DNA of 64,000 nucleotides from positions 4,581,501 through 4,645,500 of the forward strand of contig CM049403.1 in assembly GCA_026929865.2 (NCBI GenBank). The letters are read 5' to 3'. Numbering within the stretch: the stretch's first letter is position 1; every line of letters begins with the position of its first letter. The translations under genes and the position numbers were made by a program. This DNA is from Hyperoplus lanceolatus (taxonomy: Eukaryota; Chordata; Actinopteri; Uranoscopiformes; Ammodytidae). The notes beneath the pieces are model-generated. The model saw only the letters and a list, made by a program, of their open reading frames with translations, was not told the origin of the DNA and made no database searches. This document shows, piece after piece, positions 5,301-11,407 of this stretch.

Positions 5301-8300
5301 TAAGTCATGATATAACTCCATCCTTATCTGTGTCATGCAGGTTGTTCAGGTTCTGCGAGCCATCGACAAGGACCAGGTTGGAGGGCTAGAGACCCCGGTT
5401 CACTTCAGCATCTCCCCAGAGTCCAGCTCTGCACTCAACCTCTCCATCAGGGAAACTGGAGGTTGGGCCCAATAGCTGTCTCTTGTTCTCTCTTTCATGC
5501 ACAACCACCCAGCCAAAACTGGTGCAAGCTTGATGTGCAGTGACTGTGTTTCATGTGTGTGTGTGTGTGTTGTGTGTGTGTGTGTGTGTGTGTGTGTGTG
5601 TGTGTGTGTGTGTGTGTGTGCATTTTTTGTTTTTTTCTACCACGTTATCAGGTGTGACAGCCAGCCTGGTGCTACAGTCAGCCTTGGAGCCCCTGGCTGG
5701 CTTCTCCTCCTCCTTACTCACTCTCTACGTGCCAGTGGTGCTGCGCGACGGAGCCTCAGGCCTGACCAACACGGGCACGGTCACTGTGACCATTTGCCCC
5801 TGCCTGAGAGGAGGCATGCAGACAGAGGACAGGGGGAGACAAAGAGACAAGCGATGGGAGAGACACCTGGTCTGTCTCCCCATGCCATCCGCCTCCACCT
5901 CTCTCATATTCAGCATGGTCACCTTGCTGGCCATGCTTGCCTGCGTCACCACGCTGCTGGGTAGGTTTTTTTTTGGGTCCTCTTAAAGCTACAGTGTGTA
6001 ACTTTTTCATATGAATGAATGTCAGTTACAATCGAGCCTTTGTCATTCTGAGTTGACACAAAGTTGATTAAGCCCATCAGCTCCACAAAACTCTCTCTGT
6101 ATTTCCCAGTATTGCAGTTTTTACAAACTGGTGTTGCCTCCGGACACTGGATACTGGAGCTTAAGAAGCGCCCCCGAAATGTTTCGGTTGTTGATTCTAC
6201 TGCTAAGCAAAAACCTGGACTAGAGCAGAAAGTATCCAATCGCCATCATCACCAAAGGCTTAACCTTGTGTAGATGTAGTACTCACTAAGGGGGCGACAG
6301 AAGTAACGCACTATGGCTTTAAGTTCCTGAAGCACTATGCACATATGTCGTTTGTGACTTAATTGAAGGAGATGCTGAGCGGCTGTGTGAGGTTGGCTTT
6401 TTTGAAAGAGCACTTTGTCATGTGTGTCCTCTCTGCCCTTTAGTGTTGTGTGCGCTCTCGCTGTCACTGCGCCATCAGAAGAGGGACGCGCACTCGCCCT
6501 TCGAGGAGGATGACATCAGGGAGAACATCATCTCCTACGATGACGAGGGGGGAGGAGAGGCAGACACGGCCGCCTTCGACATCACGGCGCTGCAGAGCAT
6601 GCACCGGATGCAGCACATGCAAAGCAACATGCACAGCAACAGAAACATGTGAGCAAACACCCCACCCTGCGCTCCAAATATAAATCACCTACTCTTTCTT
6701 TTCTTTTTTCTATTCTTCATACGACAGCTGATCATAAAAAGTATGGAGTTAGGCACACAATTGGGTCATACTTTAACTTATTTATTTCATCATAATCATC
6801 GTCGCGCCTTGAACTTACCTCTTGCGTATACTGTATCCGGCACATGGTTGGCTGTTTTCACACGGAGGCTCTGTCGATGTGACGTCACTTCCGGTGCGCA
6901 GTGGCTTGTGGGTCAGAATCACCCCCCCAAAAAAGCATGCTGATTTCCACACATAAAGTTACGACCAGATGTAGTAGATGTATGACCTTTTTTTTTTCAG
7001 CATGTTGCATCTGACCACAGTTATCGGGACACCCTAAATCCAAATCGTTCTACCACATGATGTAGCAGGGAAGAATGGGTATTGGAATGCAGGCAAAGTT
7101 TATCCAGTTTATGTGTGTGTGTGTGTGTGTGTGTGTGTGTGTGTGTGTGTGTGTGTGTGTGTGTGTGTGTGTGTGTGTGTGTGTGTGTGTGTGTGTGTGT
7201 GTGTGTGTGTGTGTGTGTGTGTGTGTGTGGCTTTCTCTGACATTTATCTCTCTGGGCCCAGATGGTACACGCAGCAGAATCCGACCCGGGCCAGGACATA
7301 CAGCTGGAACCGTACCCTGCGCCCTCCCTGCCTGGACCCCCAGCAGCAGCAGCAGAGGCCGGGCTCCGCTCCGCTCTACGGACGGCTGTGTTACGGCATC
7401 CATACGCTGCCCGTGATAAGAGACTATCCGGCGGGTCCGCTGGAGGCAGGGCTGCAGCTAACCGGGCTGACCCACCACGGGCTCACCGGAGGAGGAGGTC
7501 ATATTGGCAATTCCCTTGTCATTCAAAACCAGAGCACCTTTGATCCTCTCCTGCGCTCTCCTCCTCCTCCCCCTCCACCTCTTCAGACGAGCCCCGCTTG
7601 TTACGAGGCAGAGCACATGCTGGCAAAGAGCAAGATCCCACAGAGAAATGATGAAGGCAGTGAAGCGAGCGCCGCCGACGGAAAACTGAATCAGGATCTG
7701 GAAAAGGTCAGATGATAGTATTATTGCTTACAGATTCAAACATAAAGCAATATATGAAGGCAACGAAAGTCTAAACAGATTTGAATTATTTGAGCGTGGC
7801 TTGGACGAGTCTGTTTTAAGATTGGACAGTTAGATAAAAAGTGTATAATAATCGAGAATACCACTTTTCAAATTCAAGGAGTCATTTTTCAGCACGCACA
7901 CAAGACGGGCAGTTAGCGGAAGGTGAGTAGATATAGGCTGATTTTTGAGAACAGTTGTTCTAAATTAAACCGCTCAGTATGCCTTTAATTGTGGGTGTAT
8001 CAGGTTGGAGGCTTTTGCACTTTTGATATTCAAAATATTCTGACACCAAAATTGGAGATACTGTATATTGACACTTAAGCATCCAGGATCCAAGGAGGAG
8101 TTGAAAGAACAGTCTTCCGTCCAATCAAATCAAAGATGGAGAAGTTCTGTTCATAACATATACAGTACATTTGTCAAAATGTTTTGCAGAGACTCTAAAT
8201 GATTCAAACCATATGAATCCAAATTGTTGGTTTATATATGATAGGGGAGAACGGGGTAATCTGAGCCACTATTTAAGCGAGCTAAAATGATTTATCACTC

Positions 8301-11300: not shown

Positions 11301-11407
11301 AAGGAGGAGGAGGAGGGGACACTGCAGAGGCGGCGCTCCTCGATGAGACTCATAAACAAAAGGAGAAGGAGGACGTGGAGAAAGAACTGCACAAATGGGA
11401 TTTCTAG
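2304..11407 (+). CDS. Type II-like classical cadherin, 3' part (9 exons), unusually long cytoplasmic tail
   Basis: This is a calcium-dependent adhesion receptor of the plasma membrane. Coding exons are 2304-2485, 3132-3388, 4352-4488, 4656-4777, 5341-5461, 5652-5960, 6444-6648, 7262-7706 and 10439-11407 (TAG stop 11405-11407). All join in frame with GT-AG borders. The first exon starts inside EC3 ([20 protein letters not shown]). EC4 and EC5 follow, with type II hallmarks [21 protein letters not shown] and DQNDNAPEL. One membrane helix follows ([15 protein letters not shown]...). The juxtamembrane p120-catenin site is [15 protein letters not shown], and a beta-catenin site ([22 protein letters not shown]) lies near the C terminus. 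Between these two sites are about 336 extra residues, and the tail is about 528 residues against roughly 160 usual. Two cysteines in EC4 ([10 protein letters not shown]) are odd. EC1-EC2 and the start lie outside the window. CDH24 or CDH22 are the nearest families I recall, but I do not assign one. Confidence 0.9.
3990..4100 (-). repeat. Fragment of inverted-repeat element (family of 6666-7094 and 40813-41225)
   Basis: The stretch with CCCTGCGTTCAAATCCCCATACTT and AATTGGGATGTCCCAAT is the reverse complement of the right end of the copy at about 41130-41225. Only one end is present, in a cadherin intron. Confidence 0.6.
5554..5620 (+). repeat. (GT)n microsatellite just upstream of a cadherin acceptor
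   Basis: About 33 GT units are broken once. They are followed by T-rich sequence and the acceptor TTATCAG at 5645-5651, so the UG repeat of the transcript sits about 30 nt before the exon. Confidence 0.95.
5652..6648 (+). CDS. Cadherin exons for EC5 end, membrane helix and p120-binding juxtamembrane segment
   Basis: These are two coding exons of the cadherin above, 5652-5960 and 6444-6648. The first gives the end of EC5 with a CPC...C cysteine pattern (TICPCLRGG, then HLVCLP) close to the membrane, followed by the start of the hydrophobic helix. The intron splits the helix (TTLL | VLCALSLSL). The second exon gives the stop-transfer RHQKRD and the acidic [19 protein letters not shown] block, which in classical cadherins binds p120-catenin. 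It then ends in a Met/His/Gln-rich run ([19 protein letters not shown]) that ordinary type II tails lack. Confidence 0.88.
5984..6321 (+). mobile_element. MITE, family A copy 1
   Basis: The ends are inverted repeats: TAAAGCTACAGTGTGTAAC on the left and the complement TAAAGCCATAGTGCGTTAC from the right end (GTAACGCACTATGGCTTTA). There is no coding capacity. The second copy at 11431-11820 shares the interior (for example GTTTC-GTTGTTGATTCTACTGCTAA) and the orientation. Both copies are in the same cadherin locus. A TA target is possible, but the duplication is too short to prove. Confidence 0.8.
6666..7094 (+). mobile_element. Inverted-repeat element, family B copy 1
   Basis: This matches 40813-41225 along its length: GCTCCAAAT start, ATTTATTTCATCATAA, GATGTGACGTCACTTCCG, AGCATGCTGATTTC, and a TATTGGAATGCAGG end. 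It begins only 17 bases after the donor of the cadherin exon ending at 6648. No transposase frame is present. Confidence 0.7.
7112..7228 (+). repeat. (GT)n microsatellite, about 58 units, just upstream of a cadherin acceptor
   Basis: This is an uninterrupted GT run. It ends about 33 bases before the exon at 7262, with only GGCTTTCTCTGACATTTATC-type pyrimidine sequence between. Confidence 0.97.
7262..7706 (+). CDS. Cadherin tail exon, lineage-specific insert part 1
   Basis: This 445-base exon adds about 148 residues between the p120 site and the beta-catenin site. It follows the AT of the previous exon to make Ile, then Trp-Tyr-Thr. It contains a glutamine run (PQQQQQRPG), the segment [19 protein letters not shown], a glycine-rich stretch (GGGGHIGNS) and a proline run ([13 protein letters not shown]). 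I recognise no domain. The frame is open with no stop and flanking splice sites agree, so it is probably coding rather than retained intron. Confidence 0.75.
7707..8241 (+). other. Cadherin intron, no recognised feature
   Basis: This is AT-rich intron sequence between the donor at 7707 and the start of the inverted-repeat element at 8242. I see no repeat copy or coding segment in it. Confidence 0.6.
8242..10216. mobile_element. Inverted-repeat DNA element (GGGGAGAACGGGGTAA ends), copy 1, interrupted
   Basis: The left end is TAGGGGAGAACGGGGTAATC. The right end, GATTCCCCCGTTCTCCCCTA, is its near complement. A second element with the same termini lies at 56649-58202. Just inside the left end, and again near 9080-9150, short blocks such as GGGGTAAACTGAG and CTCACTTTCCCCCA recur. 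No transposase frame is visible. The body is broken by another element at 9278-10002. Left and right flanks are both TA-rich, so the target duplication cannot be defined. Confidence 0.75.
9278..10002. mobile_element. MITE family C, long variant, nested in the 8242-10216 element
   Basis: The ends are TTAAAGCAGCAACGAGTAAC and the complement TTAAAGCCACTACGAGTAAG. The interior shares AACAGCAAACGAGACCATC, TATATAGTTTTTATTA and CTACCGCTTTTGTTCAAAG with other family C copies at 16401, 47730, 49698 and 60974. Confidence 0.75.
10439..11407 (+). CDS. Cadherin last exon: insert part 2, beta-catenin site and Glu/Gly/Lys-rich end
   Basis: This 969-base exon encodes 322 residues and a TAG stop. About 188 Ser/Thr-rich residues come first (including [20 protein letters not shown]), with no recognised domain. 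Then [25 protein letters not shown] and TSLSSLESD match the catenin-binding domain of classical cadherins. [15 protein letters not shown] stands where type II cadherins have the RFKKLADMYG-like end. The last 60 or so residues are a purine-rich, low-complexity Glu/Lys/Gly/Arg extension. The reading frame from the acceptor at 10438 is open throughout, so the ATG at 10625 is internal, not a start. Confidence 0.85.
   Translation: MNSTAPEFTHTTTTTNPSILTHCDPKESSCPSHSSSSSHTQQTEERPGSSQTQISTGATSCTLDDIDTDSSIRSTSEQNFSTGGGGHINTINPAAYHTEDTYSVVGSLNPNSGGASCVNGTSSRLYQAGVQQLLSMCRLQGKDYLTPLQSCLLSPGAAAFGDNNNRGWACGAEEGPAASSHSNPQPLHMEDLLNIRLDQVTFDLSQPPYDSLQTYEFEGRDSRATSLSSLESDGEKEGEGDRAGVGGMEELNQKFQRLVEIIRERETEKEKGGEGEREGEGEKQAAEEGGGGGDTAEAALLDETHKQKEKEDVEKELHKWDF
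11120..11400 (+). repeat. Purine-rich low-complexity coding tract
   Basis: GAG/GGA/AAG-rich sequence runs inside the last cadherin exon. It is in frame and encodes the Glu/Lys/Gly/Arg-rich C-terminal extension. The long frames on the opposite strand here (Ser/Leu/Pro-rich) are products of the composition. Confidence 0.85.

Follow-up and report, generated by a model that had tools for sequence, protein, structure and literature searches.

A 64,000-nucleotide stretch of the Hyperoplus lanceolatus genome (assembly GCA_026929865.2, contig CM049403.1, positions 4,581,501 to 4,645,500, forward strand), referred to below as the window and numbered from its first letter, carries the 3' part of a gene for a type II classical cadherin, followed downstream by exons for a REPS2-like protein. 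From the sequence, we judge at a probability of about 0.8 that the cadherin gene is cdh24 and that it encodes an abnormally long cytoplasmic tail, with the layout given below. Splicing was deduced from the genomic sequence, using exon borders, reading phases and comparison with a second, sister copy of the gene on C12 of the same genome. The tail is encoded by three exons, with the following parts:

6444..6648, plus strand: exon G, which carries the p120-catenin block beside the membrane (SYDDEGGGE, 6533 onwards) and ends in phase 2; agrees with the C12 copy at 46 of 67 residues.
7262..7706, plus strand: exon H, the added tail exon, 445 nucleotides with 148 complete codons; phases 2 and 0; no Pfam family.
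7263..7535, plus strand: module of exon H that is conserved in both copies, [26 protein letters not shown]; alignment with C12 gives 41 identical residues out of 81.
7536..7706, plus strand: remainder of exon H including poly-Pro, unconserved; 13 of 57 residues identical to the C12 copy.
10439..11407, plus strand: last exon, I, with a Ser/Thr-rich linker, the beta-catenin site and a charged end; Pfam PF01049 at 60.9 bits.
10439..10993, plus strand: Ser/Thr/Gly-rich linker of 185 residues; 35 of 185 identical to the sister copy; no BLAST match.
10994..11230, plus strand: beta-catenin-binding region, [28 protein letters not shown] at 11057-11095..SLSSLES and the following stretch; 42 of 78 residues identical to the C12 copy.
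11231..11404, plus strand: Glu/Lys/Gly-rich C-terminal extension; agrees with C12 at 14 of 39 aligned residues; DNA partly a purine-rich tandem repeat.

The positions of the three tail exons (6444-6648, 7262-7706 and 10439-11407) proved to be exactly those given in a preliminary description of this DNA, with GT-AG borders and fitting phases (entered in phase 1 at 6444, in phase 2 at 7262 and in phase 0 at 10439; TAG stop at 11405-11407). The long open tail was also recovered, at 539 residues, with exon 6444 taken as its beginning, instead of the about 528 previously given. Both catenin blocks are present and far apart as described, but their distance had been set too low, at about 336 residues. 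SYDDEGGGE begins at tail residue 31 (window 6533) and the beta-catenin block, [13 protein letters not shown], begins at residue 424 (window 11057), which leaves 384 residues between the two. With a juxtamembrane p120-catenin block, a C-terminal beta-catenin block and a tail of this length, the protein is indeed an unusual classical cadherin, as had been supposed.

Both blocks were compared with solved cadherin tails. The p120 block has the same residues as the E-cadherin core in PDB 1i7w and is kept in the sister and in other genes; in alignments it matches the 1i7w E-cadherin chain and EP-cadherin 1q55, weakly when taken by itself (i-Evalue 0.16 and 1.1). The beta-catenin region was recognized by Pfam PF01049 (58.9 and 60.9 bits) and matches the E-cadherin chains of 1i7w and 3ifq. 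Of these chains, that of 1i7w aligns over the p120 core as well as the catenin-binding stretch, and that of 3ifq over the catenin stretch. The E-cadherin chain of 1i7w differs in being only 151 residues long, with no insert between the two sites. The coding nature of the tail exons was examined by codon usage, trained on the ectodomain and membrane exons only. The reading frame scored best of six in both exon H (0.216; next frame 0.141) and exon I (0.362; next frame 0.174), and the chance of a stop-free frame, as calculated from local dinucleotide content, was 0.012 for exon H and 0.0003 for exon I.

Classical cadherin tails are usually regarded as short, strongly conserved platforms for catenins. 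The genome (807 Mb in 527 contigs) was searched with the p120 exon, which matched at 13 places, and tails were read at nine of them: the window gene and its C12 copy, six further type II genes and a gene at C1:5.01M. The other four, three on C21 and one on C2, were left aside; their open frames measure 185-208 residues on C21, which suggests ordinary tails, and 70 residues on C2. Between DEGGGE and PPYD, gaps of 64, 65, 70, 76, 77 and 90 residues were found in the six other type II tails, against 384 in the window gene and 426 in the C12 copy. A short tail is typical of type II cadherins, yet tail length is no defining trait of CDH24. The 65-residue gap belongs to CDH11 on C15, which shares the plan of a p120 block followed by a catenin block and differs in its normal tail, in an intron placed right after LQ and in the lack of exon H in the stretch read. 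The human CDH24 tail, which we take to be about 165 residues without exon H, likewise stands far below the 539 residues and the 384-residue gap of the window gene.

The long tail is shared by both copies. Tail exons of the C12 copy measure 205, 487 and 993 nucleotides, compared with 205, 445 and 969 in the window gene, with the same phases (2 and 0), and its tail totals 561 residues. Since the extra exon, its phases and the layout are common to the two, the long tail must predate their split, which may correspond to the teleost genome duplication. Silent differences between the copies are high in every part of the tail (pS 0.58-0.80) and have reached saturation in the conserved module of exon H, and the conserved parts are thus indicated to have been retained by selection. 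The conserved module of exon H gave an alignment score of 154, compared with a mean of 29 for shuffled sequences, and none of 1000 shuffles scored as high. The score of the exon H remainder, by contrast, was reached by 187 of 1000 shuffles and the local score of the linker by 673 of 1000. The longest blocks common to the exon H of both copies are [13 protein letters not shown] and SLVIQNQ. In the fish's own genome, the exon H protein gave good matches at the window gene and at C12 only, and the next match had an E value of 0.24; a repeat-derived origin of the exon is therefore not supported. Nor is a known domain in the insert, as no Pfam family was found in exon H and the tail, compared with PDB at a cut-off of E 0.01, matched cadherin tails only.

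Exon H is flanked by a (TG)59 microsatellite at 7112-7229, which ends 32 bases upstream of the exon and lies so near that its length could affect splicing. Within the last tail intron, 28-nucleotide inverted repeats with 93% complementarity, at 8241-8268 and 10190-10217, enclose about 2 kb, which is probably a DNA transposon insertion.

How much of the added tail is functional has to be weighed separately from the identity of the gene. The long tail could be mostly neutral growth, in which low-complexity repeats expanded within a tolerant, disordered linker while the tail kept its normal function; this possibility is a serious one, although we give it less than an even chance. It agrees with the lack of local conservation beyond shuffles in the linker and in the second half of exon H, and with the purine-rich and TG repeats in or beside the tail exons. 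It also agrees with a divergent type II-like cadherin on C1 (C1:5.01M; L048:1-882), in which the two blocks stand 163 residues apart and the catenin motif is altered (VDSLQIFSFEG in place of PPYDSLQ..); in light of this gene, tail lengthening may be partly neutral and is less likely to be unique to the window gene. Neutral growth does not, however, readily account for the first approximately 90 residues of exon H, with half of the aligned residues identical in spite of saturated silent sites and a score that no shuffle equals. Nor does it readily explain the similar total length of the two tails (539 and 561 residues) or the global alignment of the linker, whose score was reached by 5 of 300 shuffles and is slightly above chance. 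The proposal of added tail partners in the preliminary description is accordingly plausible for the approximately 90 conserved residues of exon 7262-7706, and it falls for the poly-Gln, poly-Pro and Ser/Thr parts, which are unconserved in the sister.

The identity of the gene was then considered from its ectodomain and its neighbours. All exons used have GT-AG borders with matching phases, and after splicing give a mature protein of 1132 residues. The mature protein starts with SWLWNQFF after RRQRR, 6.6 kb before the window, and the exons upstream of the tail run through 2304-5960 and further back. Those within the window, each in phase and with a counterpart in the C12 copy, are:

2304..2485, plus strand: cdh24 ectodomain exon, start of extracellular cadherin repeat 3 (EC3).
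3132..3388, plus strand: cdh24 exon, EC3/EC4; 72% identity to the C12 counterpart.
4352..4488, plus strand: cdh24 exon, EC4.
4656..4777, plus strand: cdh24 exon, EC4/EC5.
5341..5461, plus strand: cdh24 exon, EC5.
5652..5960, plus strand: cdh24 exon, end of EC5 and membrane helix, the helix recognized by eye.

Five EC repeats, a furin-type site and a single membrane helix were found, with EC1-2 lying upstream of the window and EC5 as well as the helix assigned by eye. Pfam detected three Cadherin stretches in the window part, the best covering residues 115-205 and being the sole one located. Type II cadherins are defined, in PMC11581309, by Trp at positions 2 and 4 and by an EC1 without HAV. 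The mature start contains both W2 and W4, and HAV was not seen in EC1. Against solved structures, EC1-2 matched CDH11 best, followed by a CDH11/CDH6 chimera and then by CDH8, so that CDH11 (PDB 2a4e) is the closest solved ectodomain. The genome's own CDH11 was located on C15 (86 of 98 residues identical to 2a4e over one exon) and its own CDH8 on C1 (73 of 96 identical to 2a62).

Open frames around the window gene on C9 and around its copy on C12 were compared, a comparison that repeats dominated until they were filtered out. Of 33 proteasome-family matches in the genome, the four best are found close to the two cadherin genes and share their strand. On C9, the segments 4566578-4566904 and 4567064-4567282 belong to a single 391-residue frame, which lies 7.6 kb upstream of the EC1 exon, matches beta type 5 and 8 chains and reads as a subunit of the beta5 type; no second one was found nearby. 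On C12, one single-frame and one split proteasome-family gene lie within 26468128-26480841, about 126-139 kb before the EC1b exon, and these are placed at the level of the proteasome family. A single-frame, psmb11-like gene of the beta5 type, with 382 residues, of which about 53 (215-267) separate the two parts that were matched, was observed at L018:4763-5911. According to PMC5309848, the mouse beta5t gene, which has a single exon, is placed between beta5 and Cdh24, and other mammals have the same order. With proteasome neighbours on the same strand and CDH11 and CDH8 located elsewhere, we name the window gene and its C12 copy cdh24 co-orthologues. What the gene has in common with CDH24 is a beta5-type proteasome neighbour, an EC1-2 of type II that belongs with CDH8, CDH11 and CDH24, and both the p120 and beta-catenin blocks.

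The alternative of a fourth paralogue of the CDH8/11/24 group, lost in mammals and distinct from CDH24, is improbable, although several observations speak for it and weigh against the name cdh24. Over one EC1 exon the window gene is just 61% identical to CDH11 and 56% to CDH8. For human CDH24 a presumed sequence was used, and the comparison is to be taken as a lead only: over EC1-2 this presumed sequence is the best match of the window gene (152 of 207 residues, compared with 142 of 206 for CDH11, 129 of 207 for CDH8 and 130 of 207 for CDH7), but it is itself slightly nearer to CDH11 (156 of 206), and over one exon it shares 74 of 98 residues with fish CDH11 against 71 of 98 with the window gene. 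If the split gene on C12 is beta5, the order there (single-frame, split, cadherin) is unlike that of mammals. The REPS2-like neighbour consists of exons for an EH-domain protein at 26155-42412 on the plus strand, two joined pieces of which match PDB 1iq3 (E 1.5e-30); no such gene is known to adjoin mammalian CDH24, and this neighbour is left unexplained by synteny. Against a fourth paralogue stand the proteasome genes upstream of both copies, as mammalian beta5 and beta5t adjoin Cdh24, and the absence of any further close relative among the 150 of 629 candidates scored for the EC1b exon, where the window gene and C12 formed the closest pair (82%) and CDH11 came next (60%). The mammal-lost paralogue suggested in the preliminary description is therefore unlikely. 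Its label of fish-specific may hold for the two-copy state, and zebrafish cdh24b is a named gene (PMC10281987).

That the gene model is wrong, with exons H and I from different transcripts or a shorter tail as the main form, is very improbable. In its favour, the exon joins are deduced from genomic DNA, the donor after exon H (GTCAGA) is in our judgement weakish and no strong consensus, and a scan of the window copy gave one in-frame alternative acceptor, at 10543 inside exon I, which could allow an in-frame skip of exon H. Against it, C12 repeats the exon order and phases with the exon H protein conserved, and the length of exon H (445 nucleotides, 487 in C12) is not a multiple of three, so that a skip to the normal acceptor disrupts the frame in both copies.

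As cdh24 with a long tail, the gene encodes a type II classical cadherin, placed with CDH8, CDH11 and CDH24, which is predicted to mediate adhesion and to anchor to catenins as other classical cadherins do. The extra exon and the enlarged last exon set the p120 and beta-catenin blocks 384 residues apart, and the unconserved Ser/Thr/Gly, poly-Gln and poly-Pro parts would form a disordered spacer. The approximately 90 conserved residues of exon H may be a docking module of short motifs for one extra partner, a proposal to which we give somewhat less than an even chance. YGRL, located at tail residue 108 in the window gene and 103 in C12, fits the endocytic YxxPhi pattern, and recruitment of a clathrin adaptor through this shared motif is our first guess at the partner, albeit a doubtful one; such motifs are common, with three in the window tail and four in the sister tail, which counts against it. 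Judged from its primary structure, the product most likely functions as a classical cadherin whose flexible tail is longer and has one new docking module. A fuller proposal is put forward tentatively: between its catenin sites, teleost cdh24 would carry a new docking module, kept by selection and unique to this gene pair, for recruiting a further partner (perhaps an endocytic adaptor), and the long disordered spacer would make the coupling of p120 and beta-catenin looser.

A probable CDH24 co-orthologue with a tail more than three times as long as those of its relatives in both copies, and with one conserved new block, would represent a natural experiment on the spacing of the p120 and beta-catenin sites. 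The same gene pair bears on whether extra partners can be built into cadherin tails, and cautions against carrying the biology of the CDH24 tail over between fish and mammals. Among papers in PMC under Creative Commons licences, no description of a long cdh24 tail was found; such a tail may already be present among the fish proteins predicted in sequence databases.

Searches of the window for tRNA (run with the bacterial code) and Rfam families gave nothing. A repeat is present in the window in two copies, at 5984-6220 and 11431-11820, which agree at 81% and 94% over two aligned stretches. The second copy, which has 21-nucleotide inverted ends, begins 23 bases past the cadherin stop codon, so that the 3' untranslated region of the cadherin transcript may extend into the repeat.

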